Origin: Nesterenkonia sp. LB17
GTDB taxonomy: Bacteria; Actinomycetota; Actinomycetes; Actinomycetales; Micrococcaceae
Reading direction: 5' to 3'
Assembly: GCF_022565915.1 (NCBI RefSeq)
Contig: NZ_JAJOYX010000004.1
Coordinates: 124,001 to 188,000 of the forward strand
Length of the DNA stretch: 64,000 bases
In this document: positions 38,000-50,413 of the stretch, piece by piece
Numbering within the stretch: the first letter of the stretch is position 1
How the letters are laid out: each line of letters starts with the position of its first letter
Notes under the pieces: model-generated
What the model was told of the DNA's origin: nothing
What the model saw: only the letters and a program-made list of their open reading frames with translations
The model's database searches: none
Made by a program: the position numbers and the translations under genes

Positions 38000-38150
38000 G
38001 ATGTTCTCCTTCTACGAATGGTGAGCGTGACCACGGATCAGCGTACTGGAGCCTCGTTCCGAGCAGGGAGCGTCGACTGGACGTGGGGCGGGTCGACCCG
38101 GTGCGCGGATGTGGCAGGATCATCTCGAGCAGGGGGAGAGGAGCCGCTGG

Positions 38151-39179
38151 GTGAACGGGGCGAAGCGCAAAGGTGCCAGGCGGCCTTCGATGATCGACGT
38201 CGCCAAGCATGCCGGTGTCTCGCACCAGACCGTCTCCCGCGTGCTCAACGCCCCGGAGACGGTGCACCCGGACACCCGGGAGCGGATCGAACGTTCCATG
38301 CAGGCCCTGGGGTACCGGCGCAACAGCCAGGCCCGGGCGCTGAAGACCCAGAGCACCGGGCTGATCGGCGTGGTCAGCCAGGGCGACACCGACTTCGGGC
38401 CCACCCGGATGACCTGGGCCATCGAGAACGCGGCACGGCAGCGCGGCTACGCCACCGCGCTCAGCGTGGTCCGCGATCAGCGCGCCGAGACGGTGGACTC
38501 CACGCTGGACTTCTTCCTCAGCCACGGGATCGAGGGGATCGTGGTGATCACCCCGGTGCCGGCCCTGGCCGAGGCGGCCAAGCAGCTCTCCACCCGGGTC
38601 CCGCTGGTGCTGGTCACCTCCGGGCTGTGGCCCGCCGGGAACATGAACGTCGCCGGCATCGACCAGGAACTCGGCGCGCGCCGCGCCACCCAGCACCTGA
38701 TCGATCGCGGGCACAAGTCGATCGCGCATATCGCCGGACCCATGGACTGGTTCGACGCCCGCGGTCGCGTGGTCGGGTGGCGGCAGGCGCTCGCCGTCGC
38801 GGATCTCAGCGCACCACGGATGATCCGGTCCGCCGGCTGGACAGCGGAGGCCGGCTACGACGCCGCCCAGCAGCTCTTCAGCGAGGCTCGACTGCCCGAC
38901 GCGATCTTCGCCTCCAACGACTTCATCGCGCTGGGCCTGATCCGCGCGCTGGCCGAGCGCGGGCTCTCGGTGCCGGGGGACATCTCGGTGGTCGGGTTCG
39001 ACGACGTCGACGCCGCCGGGTACTTCTCGCCGCCGCTGACCACGGTGCGCCAGCCCTTCGAAGAAGCCGGACGTGCGGCCCTGGAGCTGCTCCTCGACGT
39101 CAGCGACGGGCTGACCCACGTGCCGAACTTCATCTCCCCGGAGCTGATCACGCGCGGCTCGACCGCCTTCCGCGACTGA
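38151..39179 (+). CDS. LacI-family repressor (probable AraR-type)
   Basis: 342 aa. The N-terminal HTH is IDVAKHAGVSHQTVSRVLN (about 15-33) with the hinge helix NSQARALKTQ (about 63-72), followed by a periplasmic-binding-like sensor domain (GIEGIVVITP, NVAGIDQELGARRATQHLIDRGH, FASNDFIALGLIRAL). It lies directly upstream of araBDA in the same direction, and the operator at 39216-39231 sits between them, so it most likely represses the arabinose genes and is released by arabinose or a phosphorylated intermediate. GTG 38151 is chosen over ATG 38109 because a GGAGAGGAG stretch precedes it; this is not certain. Confidence 0.88.
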   Translation: MNGAKRKGARRPSMIDVAKHAGVSHQTVSRVLNAPETVHPDTRERIERSMQALGYRRNSQARALKTQSTGLIGVVSQGDTDFGPTRMTWAIENAARQRGYATALSVVRDQRAETVDSTLDFFLSHGIEGIVVITPVPALAEAAKQLSTRVPLVLVTSGLWPAGNMNVAGIDQELGARRATQHLIDRGHKSIAHIAGPMDWFDARGRVVGWRQALAVADLSAPRMIRSAGWTAEAGYDAAQQLFSEARLPDAIFASNDFIALGLIRALAERGLSVPGDISVVGFDDVDAAGYFSPPLTTVRQPFEEAGRAALELLLDVSDGLTHVPNFISPELITRGSTAFRD

Positions 39180-39200: not shown

Positions 39201-39231
39201 TTGACGCGCAAGGCGATGTTAACGTTAACAT
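39201..39231 (+). promoter_or_regulatory. araBDA promoter with LacI-type operator
   Basis: TTGACG (39201-39206) is a good -35. A perfect 16-bp palindrome ATGTTAACGTTAACAT (39216-39231) overlaps the -10 position (TAACAT, 39226-39231). Centre CG and AT-rich arms are typical of LacI-family operators, so repressor binding would block RNA polymerase. Confidence 0.75.
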
Positions 39232-39330
39232 TGCTGAGACGTAGATCACGTGACTCAGGTCATGTTCACGTGCAGCTCGCGGCCATGCCCGGCCCGGAGC
39301 CAGATCCAGTGCAAGGAAGAACGGTGTTCC

Positions 39331-41010
39331 ATGTCTGCTGCGGACGCGGTCGTCATCGGTGTCGACTACGGCACGCTCTCGGGACGGGCCCTGGTGGTCC
39401 GGGTCAGCGACGGCGCAGAGCTCGGCTCCGCCGTTCATGACTACGGCCACGCGGTCATGGACAGCCGACTCACCGCGCACCGCGGGGAGCCGCTGCCCCC
39501 GGAATGGGCGCTGCAGGTGCCCGGTGACTACGTCGACGTGCTGAAGACCGCGGTGCCTGAGGCGCTGCGCCAGGCCGGGGTCGCGGCCGAGAAGGTCATC
39601 GGCATCGCCACCGACTTCACCGCCTGCACCATGGTGCCCACCACGACCGAGGGCACCCCGCTGAGCGAGCTGCCCGAGTACGCCGACCGGCCCCACGCCT
39701 ACGTGAAGCTCTGGAAGCACCACGCCGCCCAGGCCCAGGCCGACCGGATCAATGAGCTGGCCCATTCTCGCGGGGAATCCTGGATCCGACGCTACGGCGG
39801 ATTCATCTCCTCCGAATGGGAGTTCGCCAAGGGTCTGCAGGTCCTCGAGGAGGACCCCGAGATCTACGCAGCGATGGACCACTGGGTGGAAGCCGCCGAC
39901 TGGATCGTCTGGCAGCTGACCGGGGAATACGTGCGCAATGCCTGCACCGCCGGCTACAAGGGCATCTACCAGGACGGGACCTACCCGGACGCCGGCTTCC
40001 TCGCCGCCCTGAACCCGGAGTTCTCCGGCTTCGTGGCAGAGAAGCTCGACCACCGCATCGGCCAGCTCGGCGAGCGTGCCGGTGGGCTGAGCGCCACCGC
40101 GGCGGAGTGGACCGGGCTGCCCGAGGGCATCGCCGTCGCCGTCGGGAATGTGGACGCCCACGTCACTGCTCCGGCCGCCGACGCTGTGGCGCCCGGGCAG
40201 ATGGTCGCGATCATGGGCACCTCCACCTGTCACGTGATGAACGGAGACCACCTGGCCGAGGTGCCGGGCATGTGCGGCGCCGTCCACGGCGGCATCACCG
40301 ACGGGCTCTGGGGCTATGAGGCAGGACAGTCCGGCGTCGGCGACATCTTCGCCTGGTACGTGGAGAACCAGGTGCCGGGAAGTGTCAGCGCCGAGGCCGA
40401 GACCCGCGGCTTGAGCGTCCACGAGCTGCTCACCGAGAAGGCTGCGGCCCAGCCGGTCGGCGCCCATGGACTGGTCGCCCTGGACTGGCATTCGGGCAAC
40501 CGCTCGGTGCTGGTGGATCACGAGCTCTCCGGGCTGGTGCTCGGCCAGACCCTGGCCACCAAGCCTGAGGACGGCTACCGCGCCCTGCTGGAGTCCACCG
40601 CCTTCGGCACCCGCACCATCATCGAGGCATTCAACGCTTCCGGCGTCCCGGTGACCGAGCTCGTCGTCGCCGGGGGACTGCTGCGCAACTCCTTCCTGAT
40701 GCAGCTCTACGCCGACATCACCGGGCTTCCGATCTCGACCATCGTCTCCACCCAGGGGCCCGCGCTGGGCTCGGCCATCCACGCCGCGGTCGCCGCGGGC
40801 GCCTACCCGGACGCCTCCGCCGCCGGCGCCGTCATGGGCGGCCGCCGAAAGAACGCCTACACCCCGCAGCCGGAGGCGGCCGCCGCATATGACGAGCTCT
40901 ACGCCGAATACCGCGCGCTGCACGACCACTTCGGCCGCGGCGGCAACGACGTGATGCGCCGGCTCAAGGCCATCCGGCGCCGGGCACACCACCAGGAGGT
41001 CAGCGCATGA
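39331..41010 (+). CDS. araB: Ribulokinase
   Basis: Phosphorylates L-ribulose, second step of L-arabinose use. 559 aa, FGGY carbohydrate kinase: GVDYGTLSGRALVV (about 10-23), FTACTMVP, the long YIKLWKHHAAQAQADR-type araB stretch (here YVKLWKHHA), GTSTCHVMNG in the ATP domain, and AGGLLRNSFLMQLYAD near the C-terminus. The E. coli protein is 566 aa. ATG 39331 is the start with AAGGAAG upstream; the open frame runs from 39250. It overlaps araD by ATGA. Confidence 0.96.
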   Translation: MSAADAVVIGVDYGTLSGRALVVRVSDGAELGSAVHDYGHAVMDSRLTAHRGEPLPPEWALQVPGDYVDVLKTAVPEALRQAGVAAEKVIGIATDFTACTMVPTTTEGTPLSELPEYADRPHAYVKLWKHHAAQAQADRINELAHSRGESWIRRYGGFISSEWEFAKGLQVLEEDPEIYAAMDHWVEAADWIVWQLTGEYVRNACTAGYKGIYQDGTYPDAGFLAALNPEFSGFVAEKLDHRIGQLGERAGGLSATAAEWTGLPEGIAVAVGNVDAHVTAPAADAVAPGQMVAIMGTSTCHVMNGDHLAEVPGMCGAVHGGITDGLWGYEAGQSGVGDIFAWYVENQVPGSVSAEAETRGLSVHELLTEKAAAQPVGAHGLVALDWHSGNRSVLVDHELSGLVLGQTLATKPEDGYRALLESTAFGTRTIIEAFNASGVPVTELVVAGGLLRNSFLMQLYADITGLPISTIVSTQGPALGSAIHAAVAAGAYPDASAAGAVMGGRRKNAYTPQPEAAAAYDELYAEYRALHDHFGRGGNDVMRRLKAIRRRAHHQEVSA

Positions 41011-41780
41011 ACGCCCTGCATCTGAACGCCTTCTCGGCCTCGGCCAGGGAGGCCATCGCTTCAGCCCGGGAGACCGTGGCCGGCCTGCATGCCGAGCTGC
41101 CCCGCAATGACCTGGTGGCCTGGACCGCGGGCAACGTCTCGGCACGGGTGGACCTCTCTGAAGAGGCCGAAGAGCTCGCCGCCCACGCCTCGGAGCACGT
41201 CTCAGGTGAGACCTCGGGACTCTTCGTGATCAAACCCTCCGGGGTCAGCTATGACGAGCTGAGCCCGGGGAACATGGTGGTCTGCACTCTGGACGGGGTC
41301 AAGGTCGACGACGACACCTCCATCGGGCTCAGCCCCTCCTCCGACACCGCCGCCCACGCCTATGTGTACCGGCACATGCCCCACATCGGCGGGGTGGTCC
41401 ACACCCATTCCCCCTATGCGACCTCCTGGGCCGCCCGGGGCGAAGCGATCCCGTGCGTGCTGACCATGATGGCCGATGAGTTCGGCGGAGACGTCCCCGT
41501 CGGGCCCTTCGCACTGATCGGGGACGACTCCATCGGCCGCGGCATCGTGGAGACCCTCCAGGCCTCCCGGTCGAAGGCGGTGCTGATGGACCGCCACGGT
41601 CCCTTCACCATCGGCGGTGATGCCAAGGAAGCGGTGAAGGCGGCGGTGCTCTGTGAAGAGGTCGCGCGCACCGTGCACCTCGCCCGCGCCTACGGGGAGC
41701 CGCAGCGGATCGCCCAGCACCAGATCGACGCGCTCTACGCGCGGTATCAGAACGTCTATGGACAGAAGGACCACGCATGA
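41007..41780 (+). CDS. araD: L-ribulose-5-phosphate 4-epimerase
   Basis: Converts L-ribulose-5-phosphate to D-xylulose-5-phosphate. 257 aa, class II aldolase fold. TAGNVSARV is in the substrate loop, [11 protein letters not shown] follows, and the zinc site is [10 protein letters not shown] with a third His farther on. Starts and stops overlap its neighbours by 4 nt on both sides, showing translational coupling in araBDA. Somewhat longer than the E. coli enzyme (231 aa) because of the insertion around residues 50-72. Confidence 0.95.
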
Positions 41781-43303
41781 GCTTCCACACCCCGGCTTCC
41801 TCGCCTTTCGAGGGCAGGTCCATCTGGTTCCTCACCGGCTCCCAGGGCCTCTACGGGCCCGAGACCCTGGATCAGGTCGCCGAGCAGTCCCAGCAGGTCA
41901 CCGCCGCCCTCGACGGCGCGGACCAGATCCCGGTGGAGATCGTGTGGAAGCCGGTGCTCACCGAGCGCGACGCGATCCGCACCGCCGCGTTGGCGGCCAA
42001 CGCCGATGAGAACTGCCTCGGGGTGATCGTGTGGATGCACACCTTCTCCCCGGCGAAGATGTGGATCGCCGGGCTCGAGGCGCTGGCCAAGCCGCTGCTG
42101 CACTTCCATACCCAGGCGAACATGGCGCTGCCCTGGGGGCAGATCGACATGGACTTCATGAACCTGAACCAGGCCGCCCACGGGGACCGCGAGTTCGGCT
42201 ACATCGCGACCCGCACCGGGGTGCGTCGGAAGACCGTGGTCGGACACAGCACCGACCCCCGGGTCCAGACCGAGGTGGGCACCTGGGCGCGCGCCGCCGC
42301 CGGGTGGAACGCGCTTCAGAACATGCGGGTGTGCCGGTTCGGGGACAACATGCGCAACGTCGCGGTCACCGAGGGGGACAAGACCGAGGCCGAGATCCGG
42401 CTGGGCACCTCGATCAACACCTGGGCGGTCAACGACCTGGTGACACGCGTCGAGGCCGTGTCCGAAGAAGAGGTGCAGGCGCTGCTGGCCGAGTATGACG
42501 CCCACTACGACGTCGCCGCTGAACTCCAGGCCGGCGGTGAGCGTCGGGAGTCGCTGGCCTACGCGGCCCGCCAGGAGGCCGGGATGCGCTCCTTCCTCCA
42601 AGAGGGCGGGTTCTCCGCGTTCACCACCAACTTCGAAGACCTCGGCGGGCTGCGCCAGCTTCCCGGGCTGGCCGTGCAGCGGCTGATGTCGGCCGGCTAC
42701 GGCTTCGGCGCGGAGGGGGACTGGAAGACCGCCCTGCTGGTCCGCGCGGCGAAGGTCATGGGGCACGGTCTGCCCGGGGGCGCCTCGCTGATGGAGGACT
42801 ACACCTACGAGATGACCCCGGGGAAGGAGAAGATCCTCGGTGCGCACATGCTCGAGATCTGCCCCTCGCTGACCACGTCGACCCCGCGGATCGAGATCCA
42901 CCCGCTGGGCATCGGGGGCCGAGAGGACCCGGTGCGGATGGTCTTCGACACCGATCCAGGCGAGGGCGTCGTCGTCGCCATGTCTGATCTGCGCGAACGC
43001 TTCCGGCTCACCGCGAACCTGGTGGACCTGGTTCCCCCGGACGAGCCGCTGCCGAATCTTCCGGTGGCCCGTGCGGTGTGGGAGCCGCGTCCAGATTTCG
43101 CGACCTCTGCGACCTGCTGGCTCACCGCCGGGGCTGCGCACCACACGGTGCTCTCCACCGGCGCCGGAGTCCAGGCCTTCGAGGATCTGGCCGAGATCGC
43201 TGGGATGGAGCTGGCGATCATCGATGCGGCCACCACCGCCCGCGGGTTCGCCAAAGAGCTGCGCTTCAATGCCGCCTACCACCGACTTGCGCAGGGACTC
43301 TAG
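41777..43303 (+). CDS. araA: L-arabinose isomerase
   Basis: Isomerises L-arabinose to L-ribulose, first step of the pathway. 508 aa, normal length. It starts with [22 protein letters not shown], then [29 protein letters not shown], and the Mn-binding/catalytic Glu and His residues in the C-terminal half ([14 protein letters not shown]). Third gene of araB-araD-araA, overlapping araD by ATGA. Confidence 0.97.
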
Positions 43304-43381
43304 CCCCGCGCGCACATGACCCACTCATTCGCACCACGTGTCTACCGCAGGGGCAGGCACGAAACCCAGGAGGAAAAAATC

Positions 43382-44542
43382 ATGCAGAACCGATCAATGA
43401 AGATGCTGGGCGTCTCGGCCGCCCTGGTTTTGGGTCTCACCGCATGTGCGGGAGGCGGCGCTGGCAGTGAAGGCGGAGACGACACCGGCGGCGGAGACGC
43501 CGCACCCGAGGACATGACAGTCGGCGTGTCGATGCCGACGCAGACCTATGAGCGCTGGCTCAACGACGGCGCGGCCGTGGAGGACGGCCTGGAAGAGCTC
43601 GGCTACAACGCGGACCTGCAGTACGCCGACGACGACATCCCCACCCAGCAGCAGCAGATCGACCAGATGATCACCCAGGACATGGACGCGCTGATCATCG
43701 CCTCCATCGACGGCTCGGCGCTGACCAGCCAGCTCGACGCCGCCGATGCCGCGGGGATCCCGGTGATCTCCTACGACCGACTGCTCACCAACAGCGAGAA
43801 CGTCGACTTCTACGTCACCTTCGACAACTTCGCCGTGGGCCAGGAGCAGGCCAATGCGCTGCTCTACGGCCTCGGAATCCTGGATGAGGACTTCGAGCCC
43901 GCCGAGGACGCCCCGGAGGAGACGCTGAACGTTGAGCTCTTCGCCGGCTCCCTCGATGACAACAACGCGCGGTTCTTCTGGGACGGCGCGATGGACGTGC
44001 TCGAGCCCTATATCGAGGATGAGACCATCGCTGTTCCCTCGGGTCAGACCACGATCGACCAGGCGGCCACCCAGCGCTGGGAGCAGGAGACCGCCCAGGA
44101 GCGCATGGAGAACCTGCTCACGAGCACCTACCGCGGTGAGGAGGAGCTGCACGGCGTGCTCTCCCCGGCGGATCCGCTCTCCCGCGGCATCATCAACGCC
44201 CTGCGCAGCGACGGGCTGGGAGACACCATCGAAGACGGTCTGCCGATCGTGACCGGTCAGGACGCCGAGATCGCCACGGTCTCGCTGATCGCCGAAGGCG
44301 TGCAGCACTCCACCATCTTCAAGGACACCCGCCTGCTCGCCGAGCAGGCCGTCAACGCGGCGGACACCTTCCTCAACGGGGAAGAGCCCGAGGCCAATGA
44401 CACCGAGAGCTACGACAACGGCTCCGCCGTCATCCCCTCCTACCTGCTGCCGGTGGAGATGATCCTGCAGGAGAACTACGAGGAGATCCTCGTGGACTCC
44501 GAGTACTACACCGAGGAGCAGGTCGAGTCCGGCCAGCAGTGA
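43382..44542 (+). CDS. Sugar ABC transporter substrate-binding lipoprotein (ChvE-like, CUT2)
   Basis: 386 aa. The lipoprotein signal peptide has its lipobox ending at Cys22 (LTAC). The mature part is a periplasmic-binding-protein-1-like sugar receptor: VGVSMPTQTYERWLNDG, DQMITQDMDALIIASIDGSAL, VISYDRLLTNSENVDFYVTFDN, and GQDAEIATVSLIAEGVQHSTIFKDTRLLA. This pattern matches the multiple monosaccharide receptor (ChvE/MmsE) taking up arabinose, xylose or galactose. AGGAGG lies upstream of ATG 43382. It is 78 nt after araA, so it probably shares the arabinose transcript. Confidence 0.93.
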   Translation: MQNRSMKMLGVSAALVLGLTACAGGGAGSEGGDDTGGGDAAPEDMTVGVSMPTQTYERWLNDGAAVEDGLEELGYNADLQYADDDIPTQQQQIDQMITQDMDALIIASIDGSALTSQLDAADAAGIPVISYDRLLTNSENVDFYVTFDNFAVGQEQANALLYGLGILDEDFEPAEDAPEETLNVELFAGSLDDNNARFFWDGAMDVLEPYIEDETIAVPSGQTTIDQAATQRWEQETAQERMENLLTSTYRGEEELHGVLSPADPLSRGIINALRSDGLGDTIEDGLPIVTGQDAEIATVSLIAEGVQHSTIFKDTRLLAEQAVNAADTFLNGEEPEANDTESYDNGSAVIPSYLLPVEMILQENYEEILVDSEYYTEEQVESGQQ

Positions 44543-44662: not shown

Positions 44663-46204
44663 ATGAACGAGAACATCCTCGAGATGCGCTCCATCACCAA
44701 GACGTTCCCAGGGGTGGTGGCGCTGGACGACGTGAACCTTCAGGTGCGTCGGGGGGAGATCCACGCGGTCTGTGGCGAGAACGGCGCAGGAAAGTCCACC
44801 CTGATGAAGGTGCTCTCCGGGGTCCACCCGGCGGGGACCTACGAGGGCGAGATCCACTTCGAGTCCAAACAGGTGAGCTTCTCCTCGCTCAACGAGTCCG
44901 AGGCTCTCGGCATCGTCATCATCCACCAGGAGCTCGCGCTGGTGCCGCATCTCTCCGTGGCGGAGAACATCTTCCTGGGCAACGAGAAGAGCCGCGCAGG
45001 AATCATCAACTGGCACGAGGTCAATCTGGAGGCTGCGGCCCTGCTGGACAAGGTCGGTCTGCGTGAGAACCCGGTCACCCCTGTGGGCCACCTCGGCGTG
45101 GGCAAGCAGCAGCTGGTGGAGATCGCCAAGGCACTGAGCAAGAACGTCAAGCTGCTGATCCTCGACGAGCCCACGGCGGCATTGAACGACGATGACTCCG
45201 CCCACCTGCTCGGTCTCATCCGAGATCTGCGGGAGGAAGGTGTCACCTGCATCATCATCTCGCACAAGCTCGGCGAGATCGCGGCGGTGGCCGACTCCAC
45301 CACCGTGATCCGTGATGGCAGCACCGTGGAGACCATCGACATGGCCGAAGCCACTCGCAACGGTGAGGATCTCACTCGCCGGATCATCCGCGGCATGGTC
45401 GGCCGGGACATGGAGAACATGTACCCGGGGCGCGATGTGACGCTGGGCGAGGAGGTCTTTCGAGTGGAGGACTGGCACGTCAGCCACCCGACGCAGCGGG
45501 AACGCAAGGTCGTCGACGGTGCCTCGCTGAACGTCCGCGCCGGGGAGGTCGTCGGCATCGCCGGCCTCATGGGCGCCGGCCGCACCGAGCTGGCGATGAG
45601 CGTCTTCGGGAAGTCCTACGGGCGCGACATCAGCGGCACCGTCTATATGCACAAGAAGCCGGTCAAGGTGGACAGCGTCGCGGACGCGATCAAGGCGGGC
45701 ATCGCCTACGTCAGCGAGGATCGCAAGCGCTACGGGCTCAACCTGATCGATGACATTCGCCGCAATATCACCGCGGCGGCGCTGAAGCGGGTCGCCCCGC
45801 GAGGGTGGATCAACGACAACGAGGAGATCGCGGTCGCCGAGCGCTACCGCACCTCGATGAACATCAAGGCACCGACGGTCATGTCGGTCATCGGCAAGCT
45901 CTCCGGAGGCAACCAGCAGAAGGTGGTGCTGAGCAAGTGGCTCTACACCGAGCCCGAGCTGCTGATCCTGGACGAGCCGACCCGAGGCATCGACGTCGGC
46001 GCGAAGTACGAGATCTATTCGATCATCAACAAACTGGCTGCCTCGGGGAAGGCGATCATCGTCATCTCCTCAGAGCTGCCCGAGGTGCTGGGCATGTGTG
46101 ACCGCGTCTACACGCTGTCCGCAGGCCGCATCACCGGGCAGCTTCCCGTGGAAGACGCCACCCAGGAGCGCCTCATGGAGCTCATGACTATGGAGAGGGA
46201 CTGA
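44663..46204 (+). CDS. Multiple-sugar ABC transporter ATP-binding protein (two ABC domains)
   Basis: 513-aa duplicated ATPase of the CUT2 type (GguA/MmsA). First domain: Walker [10 protein letters not shown], signature [15 protein letters not shown], Walker [12 protein letters not shown]. Second domain: a degenerate Walker A ([10 protein letters not shown]) but intact [15 protein letters not shown] and [14 protein letters not shown], the usual CUT2 asymmetry. It couples to the permease 3 nt downstream and the receptor upstream. Substrates likely arabinose and related sugars. Confidence 0.95.
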
Positions 46205-46207
46205 GGC

Positions 46208-47389
46208 ATGACCGGTACATCTAATCTCATCGAGCTCATGACGCGGAATCTGCGTCAGAGCGGCATCTACATCGCCTTCGTGTTCATCGTCCTGCTCTTC
46301 ACGGTGCTCACCGGTGGCACGCTGCTGAGCCCTGGGAACATCACGAACCTTGTGCTGCAGTACTCGTACATCCTGATCCTGGCGATCGGCATGGTGATGA
46401 TCATCGTCGCCGGTCACATCGACCTCTCCGTAGGTTCGGTGGTGGCGCTCACCGGGGCGGTGGCCGCCGTCGTCGTGATCCGTGAGGGAATGCCCTGGTG
46501 GGTCGGCATCATCGCCGCACTCATCACCGGTGTCCTGGTGGGCATCTGGCAGGGCTTCTGGGTGGCGATCGTGGGGATCCCGGCGTTCATCGTGACCCTG
46601 GCCGGCATGCTGATCTTCCGCGGGCTCGCCATGCAGGTGCTGGACAACGTCTCGCTCTCCCCGTTCCCCAACGAGTACCGGCAGATCTCCGGCGGCTTCC
46701 TCAACGGCCTGCTCGGTGGTCCCGGCTATGACGTGTTCACCCTGCTGATCTTCGCGCTGGCAGCAGTCGGCTTCGGTGTCCAGCAGTGGCGGGTGCGGAT
46801 GCGCAAGCTCGAGTACAAGCAGCCTGTGGAGGCGCTGTGGCTCTTCGCCGTGAAGGTGCTCCTGGTGACTGCTGTGATCATGGCCTTCGGCTGGCAGCTG
46901 GCCAATGCGCGCGGCATGCCGATCGTGCTGATCCTGCTCGCCGCACTGGTGCTGATCTACGGATTCGTCACCCAGCGCACCGTCTTCGGGCGCCACATCT
47001 ACGCCATGGGCGGCAACCTCGAGGCCGCCAAGCTCTCCGGCGTGAAGACCAAGCGGGTGAACTTCATGCTCTTCGTCAACATGGGCGTGCTGGCGGCCAT
47101 CGCCGGCATCGTCTACTCGGCGCGGTCCAACTCGGCGCAGCCGGCGGCTGGCAACATGTTCGAGCTCGACGCGATCGCTGCGGCGTTCATCGGCGGCGCG
47201 GCGGTCACCGGCGGCGTCGGCAAGGTCCAGGGCGCCATCATCGGCGGCCTGATCATGGCCGTGATGTCCAACGGCATGCAGATCCTGGGGATCGACCAGT
47301 CCACCCAGAACGTCGTCCGCGGCGTGGTGCTGGTGCTGGCCGTGGCCTTCGATGTCTGGAGCAAGAAGCGGTCATCTGTGAGCAACTGA
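46208..47389 (+). CDS. Multiple-sugar ABC transporter permease
   Basis: 393 aa (GguB/MmsB type) with about ten hydrophobic segments. It has the CUT2 features: ILAIGMVMIIVAGHIDLSVGSVVALTGAVAA (about 57-88), FIVTLAGMLIFRGLAM, RHIYAMGGNLEAAKLSGVKT (EAA-like loop), and AAFIGGAAVTGGVGKVQGAIIGGLIMAVMSNGM near the end. It begins 3 nt after the ATPase stop. Operon end. Confidence 0.95.
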   Translation: MTGTSNLIELMTRNLRQSGIYIAFVFIVLLFTVLTGGTLLSPGNITNLVLQYSYILILAIGMVMIIVAGHIDLSVGSVVALTGAVAAVVVIREGMPWWVGIIAALITGVLVGIWQGFWVAIVGIPAFIVTLAGMLIFRGLAMQVLDNVSLSPFPNEYRQISGGFLNGLLGGPGYDVFTLLIFALAAVGFGVQQWRVRMRKLEYKQPVEALWLFAVKVLLVTAVIMAFGWQLANARGMPIVLILLAALVLIYGFVTQRTVFGRHIYAMGGNLEAAKLSGVKTKRVNFMLFVNMGVLAAIAGIVYSARSNSAQPAAGNMFELDAIAAAFIGGAAVTGGVGKVQGAIIGGLIMAVMSNGMQILGIDQSTQNVVRGVVLVLAVAFDVWSKKRSSVSN

Positions 47390-47419
47390 CGCCGCTCGGA
47401 GGTAGACCCGGTGAGGCCA

Positions 47420-47562
47420 TCGAGTGTGGGGGGGGGGGGGGGGGGGGGGGCGGGGCGGGGGGGGGGGGGCCCCCGCGCACCCAACGGCGCGGCAGGGGGG
47501 GGGGGGACGAGGGCCGGTTCCCCGGCGGTGCTGGCGGCCCCCCCCCCCCCCCCCACACTCGA
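47420..47562. other. Poly-G/poly-C tract within an inverted repeat (probable assembly scar over a hairpin)
   Basis: TCGAGTGTG (47420-47428) runs straight into 23 G residues (47428-47450), then nearly pure G with single C until 47469. A 12-G run is at 47495-47506, and a 17-C run (47538-47554) ends in CACACTCGA (47554-47562), the exact reverse complement of the left arm. Nothing else in the window looks like this. The gap 47390-47619 has no gene; a real terminator hairpin probably lies here under miscalled bases. Confidence 0.75.
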
Positions 47563-47619
47563 CGGCGACTGGGCGAGGTTCCTCACTGTGACGCCGCCTG
47601 CTTCTGGAAGTATGAGGGA

Positions 47620-49845
47620 ATGAACATCGATTCCGCACGGCACACATCGGTAGTAGTCAGCGGTTGGGCCCCGGTGGACGAGCGGCGACTCTTCCTCGGC
47701 GAGGGTGCGCGCTTCCTGGAGACCGGCATCAGCCCGGTCCCGCAGCAGGAGCAGCCGGGCACCGCCCAGCACCCCTTCGTGCTTGTCGACATCATGGACG
47801 GCTGCCTGTACTCCACCTCGGCCGAACCCGGCGCCGGACTGACCCTGCAGGGGCGTGTCCAGGAGCCGCTCGGCGCGGTGGCCCCGGTGCGTCAGCACAG
47901 CTGCGCCCCCGACGGCCGCTGGGTCGCCGCGCTCGGCAAGGGCCTGGCCCTGCTGGACCGCTCAGCCACCGGTGAGCTGGAGGTCGTCGAAACGCTGGGT
48001 GAACCTGCCGCGGACCGGTCCTCGGTGCCGCTGCGGATGAACGACGCCGTCGCCGACCCGCACGGCCGCTTCTGGGCCGGCGCCATGGCCTATGACGGCG
48101 AGGCCGGGCAGGGCTTCCTGCTGCGCCTGGACCCCGATGGGTCCATCCACATCGTGCTCGAGGACCTGGCCATCCCCAACGGACCGGCCTTCAGCGCCGA
48201 CGGCAAGACCATGTACCTCTCCGACACCCCCACCGGGTGGATCCGCCGCTACCGGGTGGACATCTCCACCGGTGAGCTCGACGCCGGCGAGGACTTCATC
48301 CACATCAGCGAGGGCGGCCCCGACGGGATGACCGTCGACGCCGAGGACTGCCTCTGGTCCGCCGTCTGGGGCGCCTCCGCCCTGCACCGCTACTCCGCGG
48401 AGGGGGAGCTGCTCGAACGGATCCCGGTCCCGGTGCGGCAGCCCACCAGCATCGCGCTCAGCGCGGCACCGCCGTACCGGGTGATGGTCACCTCCGCCAC
48501 CGAAGGCCTGGAAAAACCCGCCGACCACGACGGCCGAGTGATCACCGCCGAGGTCAGCGTGGCAGGCCGCCCCGCAGTCAGCCATCTGCGCAGCTCCGCG
48601 CAGGAACCCCAGGTCAACTGGGCCGGGAACCTGACGTACTCCGCGGCCCGGTTGGAACGTCCACGCTCCCTGGAGGAGCTTGCCCCTCTGGTCGCTGAGT
48701 CCGCACAGGTCAAGGCCTTGGGCAGCCGGCACAGCTTCAGCTCCGTGGCAGACACCACCGGCACCCTGATCGAGCTCACTGCCATGCCGCGGATCTTCAC
48801 CCTGGACGCGCAGGCGCGCACCGTCACCTTCGACGCGGCCACCCGCTACGGAGACCTCGCCGCCGCGCTGCAGGCCGAGGGATGGGCACTGCCGAACATG
48901 GCCTCGCTGCCGCACATCACCGTGGCAGGTTCGGTGGCCACCGGCACGCACGGTTCCGGTGACCGCAACCCCCCGCTGGCCTCCTCGGTGCGCAGCCTGG
49001 ACCTGGTCCTCGCCGACGGCAGCGTGCACACCTTCAGCCGCGGCGACGCAGACTTCGACGGCGCGGTGGTCAGCCTCGGTGCCCTGGGCGTGGTCACCAC
49101 GCTGACCCTCGACGTCGTCCCCAGCTTTGAGGTGCGCCAGGACATCTATGACGGGGTCAGCTGGGAGGGCGTGCTGGAGAACTTCGAGGAGCTGACCAAG
49201 GCGGCCTACAGCGTGAGCCTGTTCACCCGCTGGGCCGGGGAGGACTTCGGACTGGTCTGGATGAAGTCCACCGAAGAGCCTCCGGCGGAGGTGCTCGGCG
49301 TCGCCGCCCGGCGCGAGGACATCGGGCTGGCCGGAGGCCCCCCGGAGTTCGCCACCGAGCAGGGTGGGCGGTGGGGCAGCTGGGACCAGCGCCTCCCGCA
49401 CTTCCGGCTGGACTTCACCCCCAGCAACGGCGATGAGCTGCAGAGCGAGTACCTGCTTCCACGCGAGCACGCCGTGGAGGGGCTGCGCAGGATGCGCGCC
49501 CTCGCCGCGGAGATCGAGCCGCTGCTGCTGATCAGCGAGATCCGCACGATGACAGCCGATGAGCAGTGGATGAGCGGCGCCTCAGGCCGGGAGACCGTCG
49601 GGTTCCACTTCACCTGGCTCCAGCGTGAAGCGGAGGTGGCCGCGCTGCTGCCACGCCTGGAGGAGCAGCTGCTGCCGCTCGGAGCCCGGCCGCACTGGGG
49701 CAAACGCTTCGCCACCACCGACATCGCCAGCTTCTACCCGCGGGTCGGGGACTTCACGCGCCTGGCTGAGAGGCTCGACCCGCAGGGCACGTTCCGCAAT
49801 GCGTTCCTGAACGAGCTGCTCTTCGGCTCGGAGCCGCGCAGCTAG
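47620..49845 (+). CDS. Fusion of SMP-30/gluconolactonase domain and alditol/aldonolactone oxidase
   Basis: 741 aa with no stop between two enzymes. Residues about 1-315 are a six-bladed SMP-30/lactonase (LFLGEGARF, LRMNDAVADPHGRFWAGAMAYD, IPNGPAFSADGKTMYLSDT, EGGPDGMTVDAEDCLWSAVWG). Residues about 325-741 are a VAO-type FAD oxidase similar to alditol oxidase/D-arabinono-1,4-lactone oxidase: NWAGNLTYSA, then LGSRHSFSS with His371 at the covalent-FAD position, AGSVATGTHGSG, and C-terminal ARPHWGKRF. ATG 47620 is used; an extended open frame from 46786 runs through the permease gene in another frame and is not real. It follows the arabinose/ABC genes, so it may act on pentose lactones or polyols. 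Confidence 0.82.
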   Translation: MNIDSARHTSVVVSGWAPVDERRLFLGEGARFLETGISPVPQQEQPGTAQHPFVLVDIMDGCLYSTSAEPGAGLTLQGRVQEPLGAVAPVRQHSCAPDGRWVAALGKGLALLDRSATGELEVVETLGEPAADRSSVPLRMNDAVADPHGRFWAGAMAYDGEAGQGFLLRLDPDGSIHIVLEDLAIPNGPAFSADGKTMYLSDTPTGWIRRYRVDISTGELDAGEDFIHISEGGPDGMTVDAEDCLWSAVWGASALHRYSAEGELLERIPVPVRQPTSIALSAAPPYRVMVTSATEGLEKPADHDGRVITAEVSVAGRPAVSHLRSSAQEPQVNWAGNLTYSAARLERPRSLEELAPLVAESAQVKALGSRHSFSSVADTTGTLIELTAMPRIFTLDAQARTVTFDAATRYGDLAAALQAEGWALPNMASLPHITVAGSVATGTHGSGDRNPPLASSVRSLDLVLADGSVHTFSRGDADFDGAVVSLGALGVVTTLTLDVVPSFEVRQDIYDGVSWEGVLENFEELTKAAYSVSLFTRWAGEDFGLVWMKSTEEPPAEVLGVAARREDIGLAGGPPEFATEQGGRWGSWDQRLPHFRLDFTPSNGDELQSEYLLPREHAVEGLRRMRALAAEIEPLLLISEIRTMTADEQWMSGASGRETVGFHFTWLQREAEVAALLPRLEEQLLPLGARPHWGKRFATTDIASFYPRVGDFTRLAERLDPQGTFRNAFLNELLFGSEPRS

Positions 49846-49909: not shown

Positions 49910-50413
49910 ATGTGGTTCGATACGTGGTCAGACCTGGGCCGGGTGCTGCTGATCGGCATGGCCGCCTACGCGGTGCTGATCCTGGTGATCCGCCTGTCGG
50001 GGAAGCGGACGCTGAGCCAGCTCAATGCCTTCGACTTCATCGTCACGGTGGCTCTCGGCTCCGTGCTGGCGACCATCCTGCTCAGCAGCGACGTCTCCTG
50101 GTCCGAAGGTGCGCTGGCGCTGGTTCTGCTCGCGAGTCTGCAGTTCGTCCTTGCCTGGATCTCTGCCCGAGCCCCGAAGTTCCGGACGCTCATCACGGCC
50201 CGTCCCGCCGTGGTGTTCCACGAGGGGCAGATGCAGCAGGAACAGCTGCGCCGGAACCGGCTCTCGGCCTCGGAGGTGCACCAGGCCATTCGCAGCAGCG
50301 GCTCGGGAGACCTGAGCAGCATCGCCGCCGTCGTGCTCGAGACCAACGGCACGCTCAGTGTGATCTCGACGCAGAACATCGGTGACAGCTCAGCCCTGAG
50401 CGACCTCGACTGA
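49910..50413 (+). CDS. DUF421 (YetF-like) membrane protein
   Basis: 167 aa. Three N-terminal hydrophobic helices are followed by the soluble DUF421 domain: VIRLSGKRTLSQLNAFDFIVTVALGSVLATILLS (about 26-59), RPAVVFHEGQMQQEQLRRNRLSASEVHQAIRSSGSGDLSSIAAVVLETNGTLSVI. Function unknown; YetF-type proteins are membrane-anchored. A 21-bp copy of its stop region follows at 50427-50447. Confidence 0.87.
   Translation: MWFDTWSDLGRVLLIGMAAYAVLILVIRLSGKRTLSQLNAFDFIVTVALGSVLATILLSSDVSWSEGALALVLLASLQFVLAWISARAPKFRTLITARPAVVFHEGQMQQEQLRRNRLSASEVHQAIRSSGSGDLSSIAAVVLETNGTLSVISTQNIGDSSALSDLD

Follow-up and report, generated by a model that had tools for sequence, protein, structure and literature searches.

Nesterenkonia sp. 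LB17 encodes, beside its arabinose genes, a protein in which an SMP-30 lactonase and an AldO-type alditol oxidase are joined in a single chain. The window, which is the whole 64,000-nucleotide stretch of DNA that was analysed, comes from a genome of 2.82 Mb, and the frame at 47620-49845 on the plus strand is uninterrupted, its translation comprising 741 residues plus a stop codon with zero internal stops. We tentatively favour, at not quite an even chance, the reading that this is a real bifunctional enzyme made from two joined neighbour genes, which would oxidize C1 of an arabinose-configured substrate and open the lactone on the same chain. The parts of the fusion gene are as follows:

47620..49845, plus strand, SMP-30 lactonase–AldO-type alditol oxidase fusion, 741 residues (translation, Pfam, phmmer, relatives)
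47620..48549, plus strand, SMP-30/gluconolactonase half (PF08450; residues invariant in five fusions)
48550..48612, plus strand, linker, derived from the 3′ end of the lactonase gene plus the 5′ end of the oxidase gene (alignment with the tandem genes of sister species)
48613..49842, plus strand, AldO-type oxidase half (phmmer match to 2vfr and residue mapping)

The lactonase half occupies residues ~23-310 and the oxidase half residues ~332-738. In Pfam, SGL (PF08450) matches residues 52-293 (E 1e-54; 185.9 bits against a cut-off of 26.3), while FAD_binding_4 and ALO match residues 347-472 (4e-22) and 608-732 (1.5e-15), respectively. In phmmer searches, the closest solved protein to the oxidase half is the Streptomyces coelicolor alditol/xylitol oxidase AldO (PDB 2vfr, EC 1.1.3.41), which aligns with residues 332-736 (E 7e-120, 405 bits) and thus matches the whole half; AldO is a single protein, whereas here the AldO-type part is the C-terminal half of an arabinose-linked fusion. 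Galactonolactone dehydrogenases (at most 75 bits) and DprE1 rank far below, and the TIGR01678 sugar-lactone-oxidase model gives 138 bits on the fusion, under its cut-off of 397. The original prediction, made from the DNA letters, correctly placed the two enzymes in one 741-residue chain, but its alternative label for the second one, aldonolactone oxidase, is ruled out by these scores.

The same scores bear on a role in ascorbate-analogue synthesis, in which the SMP-30 half would form a lactone from an aldonate and pass it to the oxidase half for oxidation. Regucalcin followed by gulonolactone oxidase catalyses the final two reactions of vitamin C synthesis in animals (PMC9233358), and the oxidase half does contain an ALO domain. 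The animal enzymes belong to the same two protein families and act in consecutive steps, but they are separate proteins, with the lactonase working in the reverse direction and the oxidase drawn from another subfamily. Given the far greater similarity of the oxidase half to AldO than to galactonolactone dehydrogenases, this role is highly improbable.

Residue mapping on 2vfr identifies H371 as the covalent-FAD histidine, as had been anticipated. Specifically, the FAD histidine is kept together with the active-site residues, S429, E640, R642, H663, T665 and K695 of the fusion corresponding to AldO S106, E320, R322, H343, T345 and K375. In the lactonase half, E28, R139, N141, N187 and D235 are present in all five known fusions; from the SMP-30 family we take E28, N187 and D235 to be putative metal ligands and R139 and N141 to be putative substrate residues. 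The propeller, these ligands and these substrate residues are common to SMP-30 aldonolactonases (Caulobacter xylonolactonase 7plb, regucalcin and gluconolactonase), from which the fusion differs in being joined to an oxidase and in that its nearest kin found are solo lactonases of Nesterenkonia galactose clusters. All recognized catalytic residues are retained in both halves. In the AlphaFold model of the fusion, the propeller is good and the oxidase half is poor (mean pLDDT 56.6, pTM 0.46, 10 close sequences).

The same single frame is found in four further Nesterenkonia genomes (N. sandarakina, N. aurantiaca, Nesterenkonia sp. E16_10 and G019, the last a genome assembled in two contigs), whose fusions are 87-91% identical to that of the window, and the fusion is therefore not a sequencing artefact; a frame error or missed stop is ruled out by the identical frame in five assemblies. 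All five fusions are exactly 741 residues long, and the alignment is gapless across those members of the five species included in it. In four other species (G024, which is Nesterenkonia sp. Act20, G026, G012 and G009), the same genes stand in the same order and orientation, in the same ara-type neighbourhood, as an adjacent tandem pair encoding two proteins instead of one. At the tandem junction, the lactonase stop codon precedes a short spacer, after which come a GGAAGGAA-type ribosome site and the GTG start of the oxidase. At the fused junction, the lactonase end (...AGRPAVSH) continues straight into the oxidase start (...QEPQ.NWAGNLTY), and the stop, spacer and start have therefore been lost.

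In a maximum-likelihood tree of the oxidase half, the fused proteins form one clade (100/99) that is sister to the tandem proteins (99/98) and nested in stand-alone oxidases; the lactonase tree is mostly unresolved. Beyond the fused and tandem clade, oxidase carriers have no lactonase adjoining the oxidase, an arrangement that counts against the favoured reading. Comparison of these genomes shows the fusion to be a clade-specific join of two adjacent co-oriented genes with loss of the intervening stop, spacer and start. The simplest order of events would be a solo oxidase, then a tandem pair, then the fusion; fission in the sister clade, instead of fusion, is less likely.

Such a history also invites a near-neutral explanation, according to which a small deletion fused two neighbours and both enzymes keep working with neither channelling nor a common substrate. 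The genes are still separate in the sister species, the junction shows nothing more than the removal of stop, spacer and start, and the fusion is limited to one clade, all of which would be expected from such an accident. Against it, the length is kept to the residue in five species, and the linker, with a dN/dS of 0.24 over only 22 codons, is not freely evolving; we consider the near-neutral join unlikely. Mean pairwise dN/dS among the fused genes is 0.20 for the lactonase and 0.14 for the oxidase, so both halves are maintained by purifying selection.

The fusion follows a complete arabinose module (LacI-araB-araD-araA-ChvE/GguA/GguB), in agreement with the araBDA-ABC neighbourhood originally described for it. 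The features of the module are:

38109..39179, plus strand, LacI-family regulator, probable arabinose repressor of AraR-like type (Pfam LacI and Peripla_BP_3; also before araB in L037, L038 and L039)
39216..39231, no strand, palindrome ATGTTAACGTTAACAT upstream of araB, predicted as the likely operator of the LacI-family regulator (exact match)
39250..41010, plus strand, araB, ribulokinase (open frame; the genome's gene caller starts at 39331; TIGR01234, 786 bits, above cut-off)
41007..41780, plus strand, araD, L-ribulose-5-phosphate 4-epimerase (NF005123, above cut-off)
41777..43303, plus strand, araA, L-arabinose isomerase (NF002795, 781 bits, above cut-off)
43316..44542, plus strand, ChvE-type multiple monosaccharide substrate-binding protein (gene caller start 43397; NF040907, above cut-off)
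44663..46204, plus strand, GguA, ABC transporter ATPase (NF040905, above cut-off)
46208..47389, plus strand, GguB, ABC transporter permease (NF040906, above cut-off)
47416..47566, no strand, hairpin site with its inside replaced by poly-G/poly-C runs, likely an artefact (arms CGAGTGTG/CACACTCG remain)

Across 30 Nesterenkonia genomes, the oxidase (at least 46% identity) is present in 18 of the 21 that bear araA and in 0 of the 9 that lack it (Fisher p about 1.5e-5, kinship ignored), and in most carriers it lies no more than about 10 kb from ara genes or an ara-type importer. In G022 and G008, an oxidase without a lactonase is placed between the LacI gene and araB. We regard the link of the oxidase to arabinose, as read from these genomes, as real. 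In the ara-linked oxidases of G022 and G008 (L017 and L018, about 1501-2790), the FAD histidine sits in the sequence RHCF, and the EIRT motif, which holds the AldO Glu-Arg pair, is missing; the specificity of these oxidases is possibly altered.

The palindrome ATGTTAACGTTAACAT, for which 0.01 chance matches are expected per window when as many as 3 mismatches are allowed, is of a type kept upstream of araB in relatives, and its 12-nt core GTTAACGTTAAC occurs only once in the whole source genome. A variant of it lies directly 5′ of the oxidase in G005. A search of the window and the source genome found no operator of the LacI-family regulator immediately before the fusion. Between gguB and the fusion, the spacer carries long G and C runs at about 47427-47554, outside the coding frame. 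Three relatives have at the same place a clean hairpin (-56 to -60 kcal/mol, z -6 to -10). Its outer arms, CGAGTGTG and CACACTCG, are still present in the window. Because the relatives have ordinary hairpin sequence there, the runs look artefactual, most likely a base-calling, sequencing or assembly artefact inside the hairpin. The hairpin arm is locus-specific except for one extra half-site in G020. That the fusion is without its own operator and sits behind a strong hairpin leaves any co-regulation with ara conjectural, which counts against the favoured reading.

From the retained residues and the neighbourhood, we infer the substrate, the order of the steps and any channelling: most likely, the protein oxidizes L-arabinitol or L-arabinose and then opens the resulting lactone. 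In particular, the covalent-FAD half would use O2 to oxidize an arabinose-configured substrate at C1, with release of H2O2, and could thereby convert L-arabinitol to L-arabinose, cyclic L-arabinose to L-arabinonolactone, or both. The metal-dependent propeller half would then hydrolyse L-arabinonolactone to L-arabonate. Arabinose leaving the oxidase step could enter AraA-AraB-AraD, and L-arabonate may end in excretion. The characterized AldO acts on alditols, and its textbook reaction is not the conversion of an aldose into a free lactone by oxidation at C1. AldO converts alditols to aldoses, and over-oxidation to acids is possible (PMC4513209). This over-oxidation proceeds via the aldehyde hydrate directly to the acid (PMC4513209), in which case the lactonase would have no work, a point against the favoured reading.

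The alditol-to-aldose chemistry of AldO (PMC4513209) also accommodates an oxidase that only feeds the isomerase route, supplying AraA-AraB-AraD with L-arabinose made from L-arabinitol, while the lactonase clears over-oxidation lactone and no separate oxidative pathway exists. Consistent with this alternative, a complete araBDA set and transporter lie upstream of the fusion, solo oxidases sit beside ara genes without any lactonase, and an arabonate dehydratase was not found in the source genome. Minor clean-up would nevertheless be a weak reason to recruit, keep and fuse a lactonase under purifying selection, and we give this explanation a modest chance of being right.

Known aldopentonate dehydratases belong to the IlvD/EDD or enolase superfamily (PMC9795676). 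A query for an enolase-family (MR/MLE) galactonate-type dehydratase gave zero matches in the source genome, which encodes one IlvD/EDD protein. This protein is presumably IlvD, and L-arabonate is therefore left with no known onward path. Neither a full Weimberg nor a full De Ley-Doudoroff route was found in the source genome, and the second, oxidative pentose route of the original prediction is not supported as a complete route; the lactonase half, a member of the SMP-30 family, is a candidate for the pentonolactonase step of the Weimberg/Dahms routes. Whether one chain would take L-arabinitol or L-arabinose to L-arabonate via a channelled lactone, driven by oxygen and without NAD(P)+, is rather doubtful. 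If true, non-phosphorylative arabinose metabolism would here begin with an oxidase, unlike in Weimberg-type pathways, where a dehydrogenase is paired with a lactonase.

The nearest stand-alone lactonases (62-63% identity) are found in G025 and G002, in clusters that also encode a dehydrogenase of the SDR family, an MR/MLE dehydratase, an aldolase of the KDPG type, a PfkB kinase and an alpha-galactosidase of family GH36. Their gene content suggests a De Ley-Doudoroff-like galactose route, and clusters of this kind lie at L048:9729-17909 and L054:9961-18026 in two Nesterenkonia species. L-arabinose and D-galactose have the same configuration at C2-C4. Related dehydrogenases and dehydratases of oxidative pathways take both the L-arabinose and the D-galactose series (PMC9795676). 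A galactonolactonase is for these two reasons a plausible source of an L-arabinonolactonase. In the lactonase gene of G017 (L059:9868-10881), the translation holds a run of unknown residues.

The true substrate might instead be galactose-configured (galactitol, D-galactose or D-galactonolactone), the ara neighbourhood being incidental or a matter of shared stereochemistry. Galactitol is an AldO substrate (PMC4513209), and the nearest solo lactonases do lie in a galactose-type cluster with an alpha-galactosidase. The oxidase half, however, tracks araA across the genus, and the dehydratase of the galactose cluster is absent from the source genome, making a galactose-configured substrate quite unlikely.

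On present sampling, the fusion is restricted to one Nesterenkonia clade. The family (295 genomes), the phylum (396 sampled genomes) and 72,556 plasmid records were searched for the domain pair, and no second fusion was found outside the clade; because scoring in the family and phylum surveys was confined to the top two or three candidates of each genome, a remote second fusion could have escaped. The original prediction knew of no described fusion of this pair, and none was found in the literature searched, whose coverage leaves out most subscription journals, nor did the genomes sampled yield a second case. The fusion thus appears undescribed, while both halves are known kinds of enzyme. With solo, tandem and fused states coexisting in one genus, it offers a clear case of two neighbour genes becoming one protein. 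No physiological role of AldO oxidases is named in the literature searched, and their tie to arabinose genes opens the question of the natural substrate to direct testing. Such a natural oxidase-lactonase could also serve sugar-acid production without a nicotinamide cofactor.

Downstream of the pair, the tandem and fused relatives examined carry two Gfo/Idh/MocA oxidoreductases, ThuA and an ABC importer, with a GH51-type arabinofuranosidase in most. The ThuA and GH51 arabinofuranosidase genes are absent from the source genome, which has kept the fusion, and dependence of the fusion on GH51 or on the Gfo/Idh/MocA-ThuA-Gfo/Idh/MocA trio is therefore ruled out. The trio lies close to the oxidase in several Nesterenkonia (for example L037:13014-16017). 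Between gguB and the tandem pair, two ABC substrate-binding proteins flank a GH106-type alpha-L-rhamnosidase (L045:3941-9492 and L046:3996-9592; family assignment tested in L045 only), and similar-sized genes occupy the gguB-to-pair position in G019 (L044). Directly 3′ of the fusion, 49910-50413 encodes a DUF421/YetF-type membrane protein, which most of the species with tandem or fused genes also retain.
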